A DNA stretch of 64,000 bases, from NCBI GenBank assembly GCA_947624975.1, contig CANQMP010000004.1, positions 1 to 64,000 on the forward strand. Reading direction: 5' to 3'. Each line of letters begins with the position of its first letter. The first letter of the stretch is position 1. The position numbers and the translations under genes are program-made. Of this stretch, positions 50,682 through 62,712 are shown piece after piece. The notes beneath the pieces are model-generated. The model was given only the letters and a program-made list of their open reading frames with translations. It searched no databases and had not been told where the DNA came from. This DNA comes from Candidatus Gastranaerophilales bacterium (GTDB taxonomy: Bacteria > Cyanobacteriota > Vampirovibrionia > Gastranaerophilales > Gastranaerophilaceae).

Positions 50682-52007
50682 ATGAAAATATTTGCTTTAA
50701 AAAAAAGTAATAATTCCTTTTATACACAATATCAAATAACTATTTTTGATATCGTTATTGCTTATAAACAATTTTCAAAAAATTATAACACCTATTTTAA
50801 ACAGTTAAAAAAATATAAGGAAAAGAAAAAAGACAATATTACCAGAAGATTATTCTTAACATCCGGAAATTTAAGTTTAATTAATGCTCTTGCGATTATC
50901 AATCAAAAGGGTTTAAATAAAAATAGCGAAAACAGCATTTTAATTTGGTCGCATATATCAAATCAGGAATTTGAAGAAGTTTCTACCCAAATCAGCCATT
51001 TAACAAAAATAAAAAAACTTTTTAAATTTTGTAATTGTACACTTGATGATTTATTTAAGTATTTCATAAATAATCATTTAGCTGAATATGATGAGATATA
51101 TCTTATAAATTGCAGGTATATGTTTTTAATAAAAGATTTTCTTTTTCCGAACATAAAGTACTATATTTTTGATGAAGGAGTTTGTGTACTCTTTAAACAC
51201 AAAGGCATTGACTATTCTGATGTCAAAAAATGTTTTTTTATAAAATATTTAGATAAAATAGATTTTTTAGGAGCTGATAATGAATTAAATGAAAAAATTG
51301 AATTTTTAGATAAAAGAGAATTCTTAAAAGTTTCTCAAAGTGCAGCAGAACTTTATCCTATTGGTTTGAATTTAAATCCTGAGGACAAAAACATAATTTT
51401 ATGCGGAACTGGCGAAGGATGTGGCTTTTGGAGTTTTGATGAAATATTTAATTATCAAAATAAAATAATAGATGATTTAAATTTACATGGCTATAATGTA
51501 TTATTTAAACCTCATCCCAGAGATAAATTTAAGTATCAGGAAAAAGAAAATTTCAGAATTATAAATACAAAGCTACCTCTTGAGTGCTACGATTTAAAAG
51601 ATAAATGTCTTGCGGTTGTTTCATTATTTTCTTCTGTTTCTGCTCAAATGTATAGTTTTCATAATATTCCCGGATTTTGTGCACATGGTTTTATAAATGA
51701 TGTTAAAGATATAGGGATAAAAATTGTAAAATATTATTCACCATCTTATGAAATGCTTCTTTCAATTGATGTTAAAACAAAAACATTTAATGAAGTTCAG
51801 AATGAAATTTTGTCTTTATATACAAACTTTTTAAATAAAAAAACATTAATGTCCCAAAATAGTGCCTTAGCCAATAACTACGCGCAATTGCCCCCCCCCC
51901 CCCCATGCATCTCTGAATCTGAAATACGGGATATTATACATATCAATGAACAAAAAAATAAAAAAACATTAGTTTTAGGAAGACTAAATCTTTTTTTGGC
52001 GGACTAA
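50682..52007 (+). CDS. Putative sialyltransferase-like GT-B glycosyltransferase (GT52/polysialyltransferase-like)
   Basis: Motifs reminiscent of bacterial sialyltransferases: YYIFDEGVC (D/E-D/E-G), VLFKPHPRDKF (HP), SLFSSVSAQMYS (SS); C14 tract near 3' end encodes PPPPP. Confidence 0.65.
   Translation: MKIFALKKSNNSFYTQYQITIFDIVIAYKQFSKNYNTYFKQLKKYKEKKKDNITRRLFLTSGNLSLINALAIINQKGLNKNSENSILIWSHISNQEFEEVSTQISHLTKIKKLFKFCNCTLDDLFKYFINNHLAEYDEIYLINCRYMFLIKDFLFPNIKYYIFDEGVCVLFKHKGIDYSDVKKCFFIKYLDKIDFLGADNELNEKIEFLDKREFLKVSQSAAELYPIGLNLNPEDKNIILCGTGEGCGFWSFDEIFNYQNKIIDDLNLHGYNVLFKPHPRDKFKYQEKENFRIINTKLPLECYDLKDKCLAVVSLFSSVSAQMYSFHNIPGFCAHGFINDVKDIGIKIVKYYSPSYEMLLSIDVKTKTFNEVQNEILSLYTNFLNKKTLMSQNSALANNYAQLPPPPPCISESEIRDIIHINEQKNKKTLVLGRLNLFLAD
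51891..51904 (+). repeat. Poly-C tract T1 (C14) in sialyltransferase-like gene
   Basis: caattg-C14-atgcat read directly. Confidence 0.95.
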
Positions 52008-52022: not shown

Positions 52023-52781
52023 CTAATTTCTTAAATAATCGTGCCCGCCGTATTTCTTACTTGCTTTATCCCTTAATAAAATCCTGATATCATCTTTATA
52101 ACAGGGTATGTCCCAGCCTTCGGGGTAGCCGTATTTACAAGGTAAAATCCTATATTTTCGATTTATAATATATTTGTTTATTTGACTTTCGTCATGCCAA
52201 AGCGCTATTACATTATTCTCTAAATCATCATGGATATTTTTGCTCAATTCTTCGCATAACTTTAAATATTCTTCACTCAAACCCCCGTTAAATCCTCCCA
52301 TCACATAGCTAATACCCCCCCCCATGGGAATATATGCTTTTGACTTAGGATTTCTGTCATAAGTAAATTCTAAATTTGTTTTATCATAAAACCCCGGGTG
52401 TTGAGTTACCATAATTCCGCCATGGGCGTATTTATCAGGCAAAATATCTTCTTTAATTTCTTTTTCAAAAAGAATATTTGCATTACAAAAGAATAAATAA
52501 TCATACATTTTAAGCTCATCCTTTTGAGATAAAAACATATCAAAACGCATTAGGGTATCATAAGGCCAACCGAGTTTTTTTTGATAAATTTTTTTAACTT
52601 CTTTTTTGTTGTCGTAGTCAATGTGGTCACTATCTGTAAAAACAAAATAAGATTTTTTATGCTTTTTTAGAAAATATTTTTCACAAGATTCATAAAAATC
52701 TTTCCAAAAAACAGTATATTTTCCTGTACAAATGTAAAGAATTGCTATATTTAATTTTTTTGCCATTTTATTTTTCTCCAT
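52023..52781 (-). CDS. GT6 family glycosyltransferase (histo-blood-group ABO / alpha-1,3-Gal(NAc) transferase-like); likely start at MAKKLN (~52766)
   Basis: ILYICTGKYTVFWKDFYESCEKYFL, LGWPYDTLMRFDMF, FFCNANILF (bacterial NXN in place of DXD), AYIP...MGGFNGG, WHDESQINKYI, YGGHDYLR. Confidence 0.9.
   Translation of the reverse strand: MEKNKMAKKLNIAILYICTGKYTVFWKDFYESCEKYFLKKHKKSYFVFTDSDHIDYDNKKEVKKIYQKKLGWPYDTLMRFDMFLSQKDELKMYDYLFFCNANILFEKEIKEDILPDKYAHGGIMVTQHPGFYDKTNLEFTYDRNPKSKAYIPMGGGISYVMGGFNGGLSEEYLKLCEELSKNIHDDLENNVIALWHDESQINKYIINRKYRILPCKYGYPEGWDIPCYKDDIRILLRDKASKKYGGHDYLRN
52315..52323 (-). repeat. Poly-G (coding strand) tract T2 (G9) inside GT6 gene
   Basis: + strand aata-C9-atggga; coding ATG GGG GGG GGT ATT. 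Confidence 0.95.
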
Positions 52782-54577
52782 TCCAAAGGTATTATTGTGC
52801 TACTGTTTTCAACAAAAGGATCAGGAGCTAAAACAACCCCTGAAGTATCTTTTCTAAGCCATGCTCCCCACCAGCTAAAAGTTGAATTTGCAATAATTGC
52901 GTGTTTGCATTGGCTCATTAAATACATATCTTTCCAATCTTCTTTGTTATTATAGTTATGATTACCAATAAATTCTACAGGCGCATCTATTTTAAATGTA
53001 TTGAAAAAATCTTCGCAATCAGTTCCAAAAACAAAGAATTCAGGGTTTTTTATATTTTTAGATATAAAATCAAGAGCCTTTTTGTAATAATCCCTATTTA
53101 ATTCCCAGCCCAAATTTAAATAATCCCCCCTTCGTATATGAATAAATACAGGGTTTTCACAAGATTTTATCTTATTTAAAATATTCAAATTATATTCATC
53201 TTGAATATCAGGAAAAGTAAAATCTTTTCTGAGAATATCTTCAATTCCTTCTAAATATTTAGAGTTTTGAAAATAACCTTCATAATATATTTTTTTTGAG
53301 AGGAATAAATTTTCATCATATTCAAAAGGATTTTTTTCTTGAATAATCTTAGTTTCATATTTTGCCACTTTGAACATTTTTCTCAAGAAACCAAAAGGCA
53401 GAGTTTTTTTCATTTTTTTAGCCTTTTGAATATATTCCAAAGAAGCAAATTTTATATCAGGATTAAAAATTCCGAGTTCATATTTTCTAGCGTACGTTCC
53501 GTTAGGCAAAACTCCGTTATGATTAATCTCATTAATTTCATCAAACCAATTTTTATCATAAAGAACTTTACAGCGGCATACTTTCCTTAATTTCACTCCG
53601 AAAGCATATTGAAACATTTGATTTCCAAGACCGCCATTTAAATTAACTATCTTTTTAATATAGCAATGGAGGGGGGGCAGTTTATCACTATTTTCAACTA
53701 TTTCCACCTTTCTTTTAAATTTAATCCCAAATATACATAAAACATTATGCACTTTATTATTTGCTGAATATTGTTTTTTTAAAGAAAAGATTTTTTCGAT
53801 AAATTTATATTTTAGTTTAGTAGTATTATTCGAATTAATACTTTCTCTTATTTTATTTTTTATTTCCTCGTTGTCGGTTAAAAAATCAAGCATATTATCC
53901 TGAACAATCATACTTGCAGTATAAATTTCAGGTTTTAGAGATAAATTGTCCCCATGCAGGCGATATTTTAAAAGAATAGTTGGAAGATTATAAAAATTTA
54001 AGTATCTTATGGCTCTTGACCAGAGTTCATAATCCTCACAGCTTAATCCTTCTTTATATCTCAAATTATATTTCTTGAAATCCTCTTTTCTGAGCATAAC
54101 TGCAGGATGTGCCATAAAGCAACCTTTTAAGAAATCAAAATATTTGGGATTTTGTGGATAACGCCAAATTGCATTTTCTGTCCCGAACACCTCAACTGCA
54201 CCTCCGACTATTGAATACTCAGGATTATTCTCCAAAAACTCAACTTGGAGTCTAAACCTATCGGGAAGAGAAATATCATCGGAATCCATCCTTGCAATAT
54301 ATTCACCCTGAGCAATATCAAAACCGTAATTAAGTGTTTTTACTATACCTTGATGTTTTAACCTGATATAAGTAACCCTACCCTGAACATCCTTATATTT
54401 GTTTATAATTGTTTCAATATTATTTGTAGAACCGTCATCCAATATTAGAAATTCAAAATCTTTATAAGTTTGATTTAAAATACTTTCAATAGCTTCTTTA
54501 AGATATTGTTCATCAGGATTGTAACAAGGCATTATAACTGAAATTCTAGGCATACGATAACCAAAACCTTTCTTCAA
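52751..54577 (-). CDS. Fusion of GT2 glycosyltransferase and GT11 alpha-1,2-fucosyltransferase; likely start ATG at 54553 (MPRISVIMPCYN)
   Basis: GT2: ISVIMPCYNPDEQYLKEAIESILNQTYKDFEFLILDDGS, ARMDSDD; GT11: LNGGLGNQMFQYAFG, VFIHIRRGDYL, ANSTFSWWGAWL. Confidence 0.9.
   Translation of the reverse strand: MKKGFGYRMPRISVIMPCYNPDEQYLKEAIESILNQTYKDFEFLILDDGSTNNIETIINKYKDVQGRVTYIRLKHQGIVKTLNYGFDIAQGEYIARMDSDDISLPDRFRLQVEFLENNPEYSIVGGAVEVFGTENAIWRYPQNPKYFDFLKGCFMAHPAVMLRKEDFKKYNLRYKEGLSCEDYELWSRAIRYLNFYNLPTILLKYRLHGDNLSLKPEIYTASMIVQDNMLDFLTDNEEIKNKIRESINSNNTTKLKYKFIEKIFSLKKQYSANNKVHNVLCIFGIKFKRKVEIVENSDKLPPLHCYIKKIVNLNGGLGNQMFQYAFGVKLRKVCRCKVLYDKNWFDEINEINHNGVLPNGTYARKYELGIFNPDIKFASLEYIQKAKKMKKTLPFGFLRKMFKVAKYETKIIQEKNPFEYDENLFLSKKIYYEGYFQNSKYLEGIEDILRKDFTFPDIQDEYNLNILNKIKSCENPVFIHIRRGDYLNLGWELNRDYYKKALDFISKNIKNPEFFVFGTDCEDFFNTFKIDAPVEFIGNHNYNNKEDWKDMYLMSQCKHAIIANSTFSWWGAWLRKDTSGVVLAPDPFVENSSTIIPLEWRKIKWQKN
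53671..53677 (-). repeat. Poly-C (coding strand) tract T3 (C7) at the GT2/GT11 junction
   Basis: + strand atgga-G7-cag; coding CTG CCC CCC CTC CAT. Confidence 0.9.
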
Positions 54578-55750: not shown

Positions 55751-56638
55751 TTAGGCGACATTTTGCCCCCCCCCCATCAGGGCAAAGAATACAAAGGAGA
55801 GTAAAAAGCCGACTATTAAAACAAATTCGACAATCACCGCGATAAGAAGAATATTAAAGAGTTTTTTATATTTCTTGCTTCTTCTTTTAATTTTTTTGAA
55901 ATCAACAAAGCTTGAATCCAAAAAGGCATCTGTAAACTTTTTATTATTTAAATAAGTTTTAATGTGATGAGAAAGAATTAAAAATTTTATTAAATCAATA
56001 TTTTTATCATGAATATGAGTTCTGCAAGCTTCATCACCCAATTTGCGATAATGATATAGAACTTCATTTATTTTATAAAACTTGAATCCTTTTTCAAAAA
56101 ATGTAATCCATAATTCCCAGTCCTCACAACCGATATCATTAAGCCATTTTTTATATCCACCTATTTCTTCAAAATGTTTTTTTCTAAACATTGAGGAAGA
56201 TATTAAACAATTAAAATATAAGATTTTTTCTTCATCAAAATTACAATATATGTCATAATTTTCTGCTTGAAAATATTTAACATCACAATAGACAACAGAA
56301 TATTCCGGATTGTCATCAAGTGCGCGGACAAATTTTTCAATATAAGTTTCATCAAGGATATCATCGGCATCAAAAGGAAGAATGTACTCTCCTTTAGCCA
56401 TGTTAATTAATTTATTTCTTGCTGCACAAACTCCGATATTCTCTTTTTCATTAATATAAATAATTTCGGGATGGTCTTTTATTATTTCTTGAATAATATC
56501 CGCACTTTTATCTTCAGATGCATCGTTTAATACTAAAATCTCAATATCTTTATATGTTTGTTTAAAAACAGACTCAAGTGCTTCTTTAACATACTTCTCT
56601 TTATTATAGACAGGTATGACAACTGATACTTTAACCAT
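55751..56638 (-). CDS. GT2 family glycosyltransferase with C-terminal hydrophobic segments
   Basis: KVSVVIPVYNKEKYVKEALESVFKQTYKDIEILVLNDASED, LPFDADDILD; C-terminal TM-like region running into a G10 tract. Confidence 0.88.
   Translation of the reverse strand: MVKVSVVIPVYNKEKYVKEALESVFKQTYKDIEILVLNDASEDKSADIIQEIIKDHPEIIYINEKENIGVCAARNKLINMAKGEYILPFDADDILDETYIEKFVRALDDNPEYSVVYCDVKYFQAENYDIYCNFDEEKILYFNCLISSSMFRKKHFEEIGGYKKWLNDIGCEDWELWITFFEKGFKFYKINEVLYHYRKLGDEACRTHIHDKNIDLIKFLILSHHIKTYLNNKKFTDAFLDSSFVDFKKIKRRSKKYKKLFNILLIAVIVEFVLIVGFLLSFVFFALMGGGQNVA
55766..55775 (-). repeat. Poly-G (coding strand) tract T5 (G10) at 3' end of GT2 gene
   Basis: + strand ttttg-C10-atcaggg. Confidence 0.95.
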
Positions 56639-56856: not shown

Positions 56857-57798
56857 TTAATGTGTTAAATTGTTGCAAAAATCTTCATAAACCTTTTTTA
56901 TACCCTCTTTAAGAGAAGTTTTTGCCTTAAAACCTAAAGAATTTATTTTTGAAATATCCATAACTTTTCTCATAGTGCCATCCGGCTTTGTTTTATCAAA
57001 AACTATCTTACCTTTGTAACCGACTACTTCTTTTATTAAATCAGCGAGTTCTGATATTGAAATTTCTTCCCCTGTACCGATGTTAATTATTTCCCCTATA
57101 TCTTTTGCTGTTTTATTTTCCATAAGATATACAACTGCACGCGCTAAATCACCTGCGAACATAAATTCCCTTAAAGGTTTTCCGCTTCCCCAAACCGTAA
57201 CGGATTCCGCGTTTGAAACTTTTGCATCATGAAATCTTTTCAAAAGCATTGGAAGAACGTGGGCGTTTTGTTCATGATAATTATCATTAAAACCATACAA
57301 ATTGCAAGGCATCACAGATATAAAATCAGTGCCATATTCTCTATTATAAGCATCACACAGCTTTAATCCGCCAATTTTAGCCAATGCGTACATTTCATTT
57401 GTTTTTTCAAGTTTTGAAGAAAGTAAATATTCTTCCTTTAAAGGTTGCGGAGCGTTTTTGGGATATATACAACTGGAACCCAAAAATAACAGCTTTTTAA
57501 CATTATATTTATAGGAATTTTCAATAACATTAAGCTGAATTTTCATATTTTCTGTAAAAAATTCAACAGGATATGTATTATTAGCATATATTCCCCCTAC
57601 TTTAGCCGCAGCAAGAATAACATAATCGGGTTTATTTATTGAAAAAAATTCACTAACGGCAAAAGAGTCGGATAAATCAAGTTCTTTATGACCTTTAAGA
57701 ATTAAATTGTTATAACCTTTTTCTTTTAATTCTTTTGTTATCGCAGAACCGACAAGCCCCTTATATCCCGCAACAAATATTTTATCATGTTTTTTCAT
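56857..57798 (-). CDS. fcl: GDP-L-fucose synthase
   Basis: KIFVAGYKGLVGSAITKEL, KLLFLGSSCIYPKNAPQPLKEE, MYALAKIGGLKLC, GSGKPLREFMFAGDLARA. Confidence 0.95.
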   Translation of the reverse strand: MKKHDKIFVAGYKGLVGSAITKELKEKGYNNLILKGHKELDLSDSFAVSEFFSINKPDYVILAAAKVGGIYANNTYPVEFFTENMKIQLNVIENSYKYNVKKLLFLGSSCIYPKNAPQPLKEEYLLSSKLEKTNEMYALAKIGGLKLCDAYNREYGTDFISVMPCNLYGFNDNYHEQNAHVLPMLLKRFHDAKVSNAESVTVWGSGKPLREFMFAGDLARAVVYLMENKTAKDIGEIINIGTGEEISISELADLIKEVVGYKGKIVFDKTKPDGTMRKVMDISKINSLGFKAKTSLKEGIKKVYEDFCNNLTH

Positions 57799-58892
57799 TA
57801 TATCTCCAAAGAATTATATACTTTGTAACCGTTTTCTTTTAACATTCTTTCTTTTTCAGCCAATTCAAAGTCATTTTCAACCATTTCATCAATTAACATA
57901 TCAAGATTATACTTTGGTTTCCAATTAAGTTCGTTTCTTGCTTTAGAACTGTCCCCTAAAAGTAAATCAACTTCTGCGGGTCTAAAATAGCGTGGGTCAA
58001 CCTCAATAACAATTTTGCCCGTTTTTTTATCTATTCCTTTTTCATCAAGCCCTGAGCCTATAAATTCCAAATCCATATCCAGACGAGCAAAAACTTTTTT
58101 ACAAAAATCTCTTATTGATGTTGTAATACCCGTTGCTAAAACGTAATTATCCGGTTTTTCGGCTTGCAATATTAAATACATTCCTTCAACATAATCTTTA
58201 GCATGCCCCCAATCTCGTTTTGCATTAAGGTTGCCTAAATATAACTTATCCTGTAGTCCCATTTTTATTTTTGAAGCTGCCATTGTTATTTTTCGTGTAA
58301 CAAAAGTTTCACCTCGTCTTGGTGATTCGTGGTTGAATAATATTCCGTTTGAAGCAAATATATTAAAACTTTCACGGTAATTAACACAAATCCAATAAGC
58401 GTATAATTTTGCAGCAGCATAAGGAGAACGCGGATAAAAAGGTGTTGTTTCTTTTTGTATCGGTTCTTGTATAAGTCCATACAACTCTGATGTTGAAGCC
58501 TGATAAAACTTTGTTTTATTTTCAAGCTTGTTAAGCCTTATTGCCTCAAGCAGCCTTAATGTGCCTAAAGCATCAATATCTGCAGTATATTCAGCACAAT
58601 CCCAAGAAACTTTTACGTGTGATTGAGCTGCCAAATTGTAGATTTCATCGGGTTCAATATCGTGTATTAATTTTATCAGATTTGATGAATCGGATAAATC
58701 TCCGTAATGAAGAATAAAATTTGAGCTGTCGTGTATATCTTGATAAATATGGTCAATTCTTTGAGTATTAAAAGAACTCGCACGTCTTTTTATACCATGC
58801 ACTTCGTAACCTTTTGAAATTAATAATTCGGAAAGATAGCTTCCGTCTTGTCCTGTTACTCCCGTTATTAAAGCTTTTTTCATATCATTCAC
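57798..58892 (-). CDS. gmd: GDP-mannose 4,6-dehydratase
   Basis: [60 protein letters not shown]. Confidence 0.97.
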
Positions 58893-59053: not shown

Positions 59054-60010
59054 ATGAAAATCCGAGATAAAATAACAATTAAAATAGCTTATTGCGATTT
59101 TTGGGCAAACTGTAAATTTGACGAATTACATTTTACAAAAATTTTAAATGAAAAATATAATTTAGTGTACAGCGATGAACCTGATTACCTTTTTTGTTCA
59201 TGTTTTGGAAGAGAACATTTTAAATATAAAGACTGTATTAAAATATTTTATACTGGAGAAAATTGTGTATGTGATTTTAATCTTTACGATTACGGATTGT
59301 CATCTTGTTATATGACATTTACAGACAGGCATTTAAGATTTCCTCAATGGATACCTTATGATTTAAATCTAATAAGTTTAATGGAATATGGCAGAGAAAA
59401 AAATCCTGACTTAGATAAAAAGAAATTTTGTAATTTCATATATTCAAATGCGCATTGTGCGGAACAATTCCGAGAAGTGTTTTTTGAGAAATTATCAAAA
59501 TATAAAAAAGTTGATTCAGGCGGGAGTGTTCTAAATAATTTAGGATATAAAGTTCAAAATAAATTAGATTTTATTAAAGACTATAAATTTACCATTGCTA
59601 TTGAGAATTCTTTTGTTCAAGGTTACATAACAGAAAAACTAAGCGACCCTTTAATTGCAGGTTCTATGCCTTTATATTACGGCGACCCAATGGTTGGCGA
59701 AGAATTTAATACAAATTCTTTTGTGAATTTAAGAGATTTTAAGTCAATTAACGAAGCTATTGAATATATTGTTGAGCTTGATAAAAACGATAAATTATAT
59801 TTAGAAAAATTACAAAGTCCTTGTTTTATTCATGCTAATGTTGAGAATTATTACAGAAATAAAACTATTGATTTTTTCAGTAATATTTTTGACCGCGAAA
59901 AGGAAGAAGCGAAAAGAGTAACCCGATTTGGCTGGACTAAATATTATGTAGATGCCATCGCCCCCCCCCCCCCATCGCCTTGGTTTAAAAAAATATTAAA
60001 AAAATATTAA
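59054..60010 (+). CDS. GT10 family alpha-1,3/4-fucosyltransferase
   Basis: YTGENCVCDFNLYDYGLSS, YKFTIAIENSFVQGYITEKLSDPLIAGSMPLYYGDP (FucT C-terminal signature). Confidence 0.93.
   Translation: MKIRDKITIKIAYCDFWANCKFDELHFTKILNEKYNLVYSDEPDYLFCSCFGREHFKYKDCIKIFYTGENCVCDFNLYDYGLSSCYMTFTDRHLRFPQWIPYDLNLISLMEYGREKNPDLDKKKFCNFIYSNAHCAEQFREVFFEKLSKYKKVDSGGSVLNNLGYKVQNKLDFIKDYKFTIAIENSFVQGYITEKLSDPLIAGSMPLYYGDPMVGEEFNTNSFVNLRDFKSINEAIEYIVELDKNDKLYLEKLQSPCFIHANVENYYRNKTIDFFSNIFDREKEEAKRVTRFGWTKYYVDAIAPPPPSPWFKKILKKY
59961..59973 (+). repeat. Poly-C tract T6 (C13) near 3' end of GT10 gene
   Basis: gccatcg-C13-atcgcct; encodes APPPPSPWFKK. Confidence 0.95.
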
Positions 60011-61572: not shown

Positions 61573-62712
61573 TTATACATCATAGTTTTTATTAAAGTCT
61601 TTTTGGGGTGGAGTGAAGTCCACCCTACTCCTACCGTTATATATGTTCAAATAATACCTTATTATTCTATTATCATTTATAAAAGAAATATAATACATTA
61701 ATCTTAAATGAGAAAAACTCCTATAATTAGTTTTTTTCTCTAATTCAAAAAAGTTAGTATTAAAAAACTCATCTATTTTAATACTTTTACTCTTATATTT
61801 GTCTTTCATTTTTTCATAAACAAGTTTTTTCATATCTTTTAAGTGTATCCAGAAAAAACCTATAGGAAAGATTTTTTGCATTAATTTATTATCATTTTGA
61901 AATCTTTCAATTATTCTGTTATTTTCGTTATCATAAAAAGGAATATAATAAGTATCAGATGACACGGGAAAACAAACAGTATCAAAAGTCCCGTTAAATG
62001 GCGACAATAGATCAGGTGTTTCAAAACTACCCAAAGGTATTTTACCTTCAAATAAATTTATTCCGGAAAAAGAAGTTATTATTTTATCATTTTGGATTTT
62101 TTTCTTTATGTAAGAAATCAAATTCTTAATAAAAAATTTTGGGATTAAAAAATGACAACTAAAAGAATTTAGATAATTTGAATGTTTTAATATTTTTTTA
62201 TATAACTTTTGATAATATTTGAACGCAAGCTTCTCTTTTAATAAAATTTTAACCTTATCTTCTCTTTTATATAAATCCAATATTTCTTTAAATTTATCAC
62301 TGAAATAAATCTGATCATCATCAATTTTTATTGCATATTTATATTTTGCTTTAGATAGCGCAAAATTATAATAGTTACTTAATAGATGAATTGAATTTTT
62401 AGGAAGATTTAAAGCATAATCATATTCTTCTTCAGATAAATTATGAGAATATACTTTTGGCTCATAAAAATAAACTCTAATTTTATCAGGATACTGTTTT
62501 TGTTTTTCAATAATTATTTTTTCGGTATCATCAAAACTTTCCTGATAAACAATAATTAATTCATCAAGAGCATTTATACAGGAATCAATACAATCCGAAA
62601 TAAAATCTGCACCGTTTTTTGCTCTTAATAACCCGCTTATACCAATAGGACGTTCTTTTGTAAAGTCTGAAATATTCACGGCAAAAGAGCTGCCCCCCCC
62701 CCCCCCCTGCAT
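61573..62712 (-). CDS. Glycosyltransferase (GT2-like); probable native start upstream at ~62761, out of register in this sequence
   Basis: GISGLLRAKNGADFISDCIDSCINALDELIIVYQESFDDTEKII, KYAIKIDDDQIYF. Confidence 0.7.
   Translation of the reverse strand: MQGGGGGSSFAVNISDFTKERPIGISGLLRAKNGADFISDCIDSCINALDELIIVYQESFDDTEKIIIEKQKQYPDKIRVYFYEPKVYSHNLSEEEYDYALNLPKNSIHLLSNYYNFALSKAKYKYAIKIDDDQIYFSDKFKEILDLYKREDKVKILLKEKLAFKYYQKLYKKILKHSNYLNSFSCHFLIPKFFIKNLISYIKKKIQNDKIITSFSGINLFEGKIPLGSFETPDLLSPFNGTFDTVCFPVSSDTYYIPFYDNENNRIIERFQNDNKLMQKIFPIGFFWIHLKDMKKLVYEKMKDKYKSKSIKIDEFFNTNFFELEKKTNYRSFSHLRLMYYISFINDNRIIRYYLNIYNGRSRVDFTPPQKDFNKNYDV
61605..61630. repeat. Palindromic repeat R6, inside the 3' end of the 61573-62712 CDS
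   Basis: GGGGTGGAGTGAAGTCCACCCTACTC; encodes the SRVDFTPPQK tail on the - strand. Confidence 0.7.
62693..62707 (-). repeat. Poly-G (coding strand) tract T7 (G15) at 5' end of GT gene
   Basis: + strand agctg-C15-tgcattt. Confidence 0.95.

Follow-up and report, generated by a model that had tools for sequence, protein, structure and literature searches.

A poly-G tract as a probable on/off switch of an ABO-type GT6 glycosyltransferase gene in a gut Gastranaerophilales bacterium

Blood-group-like glycans of gut bacteria are believed to influence both immune tolerance and the human antibodies against A and B, and an A/B-type transferase turned off by a single base would make antigen exposure vary from cell to cell. 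A glycosyltransferase gene of family GT6, found in a Gastranaerophilales genome with a run of nine G in its coding sequence, raises the question whether the length of this run decides if the enzyme is made. We think that it very probably does: expression of GT6 would be switched by slipped-strand length change in the poly-G tract, toggling an H-like against an A/B-like glycan. The window (the whole stretch of 64,000 nucleotides that was analysed) lies on contig 4 of a genome of 1.91 Mb in 59 contigs, whose RpoC is split into two genes, as in cyanobacteria. The closest named relative of the GT6 gene comes from a Candidatus Gastranaerophilales genome of the rabbit gut.

The GT6 gene and its tract of nine G

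The open reading frame of GT6 (Table 1) matches PF03414 with an E-value of 1.2e-31 (110 bits against a Pfam cut-off of 25) and the family 6 model of NCBIfam (Gltr_6, NF041524) with 2e-91 (306 bits against a cut-off of 250). A phmmer search of the PDB retrieves BoGT6a of Bacteroides ovatus at 1.9e-70. The AlphaFold2 model of the protein, obtained with 27 aligned sequences, has a mean pLDDT of 95.8; its best matches among solved structures are those of BoGT6a (PDB 4ayj, 4cj8), 48-49% identical over the fold, with a TM-score of 0.93 and an rmsd of about 1.5.

Residues D192 and S194 of the WHDES catalytic motif are invariant in the 27 sequences, with H191 and E193 nearly so. An NXN motif replaces DXD, its N95 being invariant and its N97 nearly so; K234, a lysine near the C terminus, is invariant too. 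BoGT6a shares all three features with the protein of the window, having NAN for DXD, WHDES and the conserved lysine. It is from work on BoGT6a that NXN and the C-terminal lysine are known to play a role in metal independence. By its sequence, the gene is a predicted metal-independent GT6 transferase, related to BoGT6a and to the human ABO transferases. The earlier note had called it an ABO-type GT6, and membership in family 6 is borne out by the two family matches, both above their cut-offs, and by the GT-A fold of the model. Translation more probably starts at a second in-frame ATG at position 52766, giving 247 residues, because there it would overlap the last part of the GT11 gene upstream and agree with the starts of relatives.

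Table 1. Positions in the window of the GT6 gene, its tract and its neighbours, and loci of the prepilin-like genes.
Feature	Position	Strand	Basis or remark
Polysialyltransferase-like gene	50682..52007	+	PF07388 3.2e-12; C14 tract 51891-51904 in 3' part
GT6 glycosyltransferase gene (ABO-type)	52023..52781	-	ORF of 252 aa; PF03414, NCBIfam, phmmer, AlphaFold2 model
G9 tract (putative switch)	52315..52323	- (nine C on +)	Third base of Met148, then codons of Gly149, Gly150 and Gly151; nine G keep the frame
Fused GT2-GT11 ORF (GT11, alpha-1,2-fucosyltransferase family)	52751..54577	-	PF00535 1.2e-34, PF01531 2.6e-22
GT2 gene	55751..56638	-	PF00535 1.4e-35; G10 tract 55766-55775 at 3' end
GDP-L-fucose synthase (fcl)	56857..57798	-	NCBIfam GDPFucSynFcl 1.1e-136, 455 bits, below cut-off of 500
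GDP-mannose 4,6-dehydratase (gmd)	57798..58892	-	TIGR01472 3.6e-173, above cut-off
GT10 fucosyltransferase, 13-base tract near 3' end	59054..60010	+	PF00852 1.6e-21, PF18025 8.2e-25
C13 tract (coding strand), last 20 codons of GT10	59961..59973	+	Length change affects C-terminal tail only
GT2 gene	61573..62712	-	PF00535 9.5e-08; G15 tract 62693-62707 at 5' end
Prepilin-like genes	G000 loci L069, L070, L073, L078, L081-L086, L088, L091, L094, L095, L097, L101-L105, L107-L114, L125

The coding strand reads ATG GGG GGG GGT ATT AGC TAT at the tract, the ATG codon supplying the first G. When tract lengths from 6 to 16 are simulated, the frame stays open at 6, 9, 12 and 15, with 246-249 residues; every other length meets a stop at 151-156 residues, upstream of WHDES. 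Ten G give GGG TAT TAG and eight give GTA TTA GCT ATG TGA, with products of 152 and 154 residues instead of 247. All of this agrees with the earlier note, which had read the tract in these codons, had placed both truncations near residue 155 before WHDES and had called the present register ON; nine, the length in the assembly, is indeed in frame. The locus has the layout of a phase-variable gene, a coding tract of nine G in which a change of ±1 breaks the frame of GT6. Runs of this kind exceed chance in the window, since dinucleotide shuffles yield a run of eight G 0.14 times per window, against five observed runs of 9 to 15.

The same note had also taken the tract for a substitute of a conserved stretch of the enzyme, and here the alignment of 27 GT6 proteins disagrees. 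Gly149 and Gly151, both encoded by the tract, are nearly invariant and the residue between them is variable: the tract consists of the codons of a conserved Gly-x-Gly. Relatives without a tract have, for example, IPYGKGKHY at this site, and nine G preserve the family length exactly. By this alignment, the tract grew out of the conserved Gly-x-Gly. Pairwise alignment places the site at residues 147-150 of BoGT6a, which has PEGEG in place of the tract-encoded MGGG. Loop 1 of BoGT6a spans residues 126-150; it is disordered in the substrate-free enzyme and becomes ordered when substrate binds (PMC3961637). The number of glycines is probably tolerated at this site.

In two further GT6 genes a tract is found at the conserved Gly-Gly that follows, GGFNGG: that of locus L146 has 13 G, in frame, and that of L066, in a Bacilli genome of the rabbit gut, has eight, out of frame. 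Conserved glycines have therefore given rise to a tract on at least two further occasions. Locus L066 holds two near-identical tandem GT6 copies (L066:5991-7138), the first being the copy with eight G; the second enters masked sequence.

Tract length and selection among relatives

The relative from the rabbit gut (L062; CANQLG010000063.1, 4.1 kb) has a GT6 protein 89% identical to that of the window and ten G at the same codon. Its gene is out of frame because TAA directly follows the ten G; as two other bases after the tract differ as well, the open lengths in L062 are 8, 11 and 14. In another genus of the same family (L137), GT6 is about 80% identical, starts with GTG and has 11 G at the same site, in frame. 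At one codon, three species thus have lengths of 9 (in frame), 10 (out) and 11 (in), as given by one consensus assembly per species, in which a run may be miscounted by one. The codons flanking the tract have changed between genera while the tract stayed where it is.

Could the tract be an artefact of sequencing or assembly, with spurious poly-G calls or a wrong length? Short reads do miscount long runs, and several contigs start or stop within a poly-G run. However, assemblies of three different species all have the tract at one and the same codon, where it specifies conserved glycines, and the gene is in frame in two of the three. The readable runs at contig edges mostly fit the leader repeat of the prepilin-like genes described below, which accounts for the contig breaks at poly-G. 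We regard an artefact as exceedingly improbable.

Between the window and L062, dN is 0.057 and dS 0.727 before the tract (148 codons); after it, in a small sample of 95 codons, dN is 0.057 and dS 0.453, a ratio of 0.13. As judged from this pair of sequences, the ratio shows that purifying selection has maintained a part of the gene which, in the L062 assembly, lies beyond the reach of translation. The post-tract dN/dS of the window against L137 is saturated. In a wide DNA alignment, the window and L062 are mostly unaligned beyond the GT6 gene.

Such constraint argues against the out-of-frame gene of L062 being a dying pseudogene whose decay the tract marks, an explanation for which the TAA right after the tract would speak. 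There is no other stop or frameshift within that gene, and the other two orthologues with the tract keep an open frame; decay is very improbable. Altogether, the on/off switch proposed in the earlier note is well supported by the comparison between species, that is, by three lengths at one codon and by selection downstream of an out-of-frame tract.

It could also be that polymerase or ribosome slippage on the G run sets the amount of full-length enzyme, all lengths yielding some product. Slippage during expression is known on bacterial homopolymers and could add to a DNA switch, but alone it leaves the differences in DNA length between species unexplained, and we consider this account distinctly unlikely.

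The preferred reading, a switch through the length of the DNA tract, would operate as follows. Slipped-strand changes would alter the number of G in the GT6 gene; with nine (or 6, or 12) the frame would be open and the full-length enzyme made, and with any other length the protein would end at about residue 151-156, without the WHDES catalytic motif. The tract would lie at the end of a flexible loop that closes over the substrate, and since its triplets encode the conserved Gly-x-Gly there, a change of +3 or -3 should only gain or lose one glycine. The toggled step would be the addition of an alpha-1,3-linked Gal or GalNAc onto a Fuc-alpha-1,2-Gal end, the cell alternating between an H-like and an A/B-like glycan, presumably at its surface.

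Neighbouring genes and the likely glycan

Upstream of GT6 and overlapping its start lies an open reading frame in which a GT2 and a GT11 domain are fused. The two are also fused in L137 and are separate genes in L062. At the GT2/GT11 joint of the window (region 53670-53690) there is a run of seven C, which may be an old tract. The order of GT11 and GT6, followed on the opposite strand by a GT10 gene whose tail holds a tract, is common to the window, L062 and L137.

GT6 enzymes of this type use Fuc-alpha-1,2-Gal ends as acceptors. Because of this, and because the neighbouring genes make GDP-fucose and encode GT11 and GT10, the product of the cassette would likely be a switchable, A/B-like fucosylated glycan. 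Which sugar is added may be a matter of two donor-selecting positions, 266 and 268 in the human enzymes, where the A transferase has Leu and Gly. The B transferase has Met and Ala (PMC4202792). The protein of the window has Met and Gly there and that of L137 has Gln and Ala; one may guess that the donor differs between species.

For the GT2 gene at 61573-62712, the state of the tract depends on the choice between two start codons. Two tandem genes elsewhere (L073:6169-8770) resemble the polysialyltransferase-like gene of the window; the halves tested gave no Pfam match, and each gene has a mid-gene tract, one in frame and one out.

The genome-wide tract set and known systems

Counting runs of nine G or more that follow a base other than G, the genome contains 74. 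We took the distribution of run lengths from 1.05 Mb of it, in stretches chosen around tracts, so that the rates are not those of a random sample. Run lengths fall steeply to 7-8 and rise again at 10-13, with the maximum at 11-13; for this second peak a first-order chain predicts a total of about 0.25 runs.

Leaders of prepilin-like genes hold 35 of the 78 runs in this set. Their common layout is a shared start, ATGAARAAGATT...CCATC, then the tract, the tail of the leader and FTLAEVLITL. There are about 35 such genes, with a near-identical promoter and leader and the poly-G tract before the cleavage site; those sampled match the N-methylation motif, mostly together with DUF6613. Of the 30 complete leaders, 6 keep the frame and 24 do not. 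Other genes with tracts encode GT2, GT8, GT61 and GT-D glycosyltransferases, an FkbM methyltransferase, an epimerase, a polysaccharide deacetylase and a pyruvyl transferase, and in several of these non-prepilin genes both halves are open in different frames. The longest run seen in the genome, of 26 G (L092:10404-10429), lies in a gene for a glycosyltransferase of GT-D fold.

This distribution over genes also bears on the possibility that the tracts arise neutrally, from a mutational bias towards poly-G growth, and have no role in switching. Their great number would be expected of such a bias, as would the location of some outside clear genes. Most assignable tracts, however, lie in prepilin-like, glycosyltransferase or sugar-modifying genes (in regions chosen around tracts), and bias alone would not lead one to expect a tract kept at one codon between genera, as in GT6; we hold neutrality to be unlikely. 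We reject a lack of mismatch repair as the reason for so many tracts, since both MutS domain I and the MutL C-terminal domain are present. With MutS and MutL in the genome, the tract of GT6 may be less unstable than those of Campylobacter or Helicobacter.

Tracts of nine G occur in 34 of 35 genomes of the genus and tracts in 322 of 387 genomes of the order, with a maximum of 176 per genome. We considered whether poly-G is a general trait of the phylum; photosynthetic relatives have runs of nine G too, but fewer per megabase than this genus. In some relatives within the genus (L051, L060, L043, L048), several runs of ten G lie outside long frames, after a repeat like TGTAAACCCTCTCTA..TTT.ATCCTGTC, which may mark a further tract-bearing repeated element.

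We lean towards the view that gut Gastranaerophilales have among the largest poly-G phasomes known, in genomes that retain MutS and MutL. These would join a switchable ABO/Lewis-like cassette to a family of about 35 prepilin-like genes, each switched through a tract in the leader peptide that cleavage would remove, and each cell would show its own small subset. With so wide a set of tracts, this uncultured and little-known gut lineage would become a candidate for extreme surface variation, and broken genes would be miscounted when its strains are compared for gene content.

Poly-G switching of surface glycosyltransferases is already well known from Helicobacter, Campylobacter and Neisseria; a search of the open-access literature returned no report of phase variation in Gastranaerophilales or Melainabacteria. 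In the Lewis-antigen fucosyltransferases of H. pylori, as cited in PMC2846917 (its reference B77), a coding G/C tract switches the translation of a blood-group-type glycosyltransferase, as proposed here. The genes switched there are GT10 and GT11 in Campylobacterota, whereas here an internal tract would act on the GT6 step, in a lineage of cyanobacteria that is non-photosynthetic and has MutS and MutL. The blood group A/B transferase of Helicobacter mustelae, HMU12050 (BgtA), likewise belongs to GT6, produces an antigen of blood-group A type and adjoins a fucosyltransferase gene, as in the window; homopolymers are listed for 12 genes there, and the passages of PMC2846917 and PMC4202792 consulted describe no switch tract in this GT6 gene. 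Tracts at the 3' end that change only the tail, like those of GT10 and of the GT2 gene at 55751-56638, correspond to the C-terminal sequence switching of Helicobacter canadensis, in other genes and another phylum (PMC2823697). In Campylobacter, as analysed with PhasomeIt, poly-G is the main repeat type and lies mostly within genes, as here; draft genomes of C. jejuni have a median of 20 poly-G tracts at a cut-off of 7, and tract lengths peak at 9-10 (PMC6321876), against 11-13 and 74 tracts of at least nine in the genome of the window, and up to 176 in its relatives. Compared with the proposed switch in GT6, the extent of the tract set and the placement of the tract in the leader of a prepilin family are more novel.
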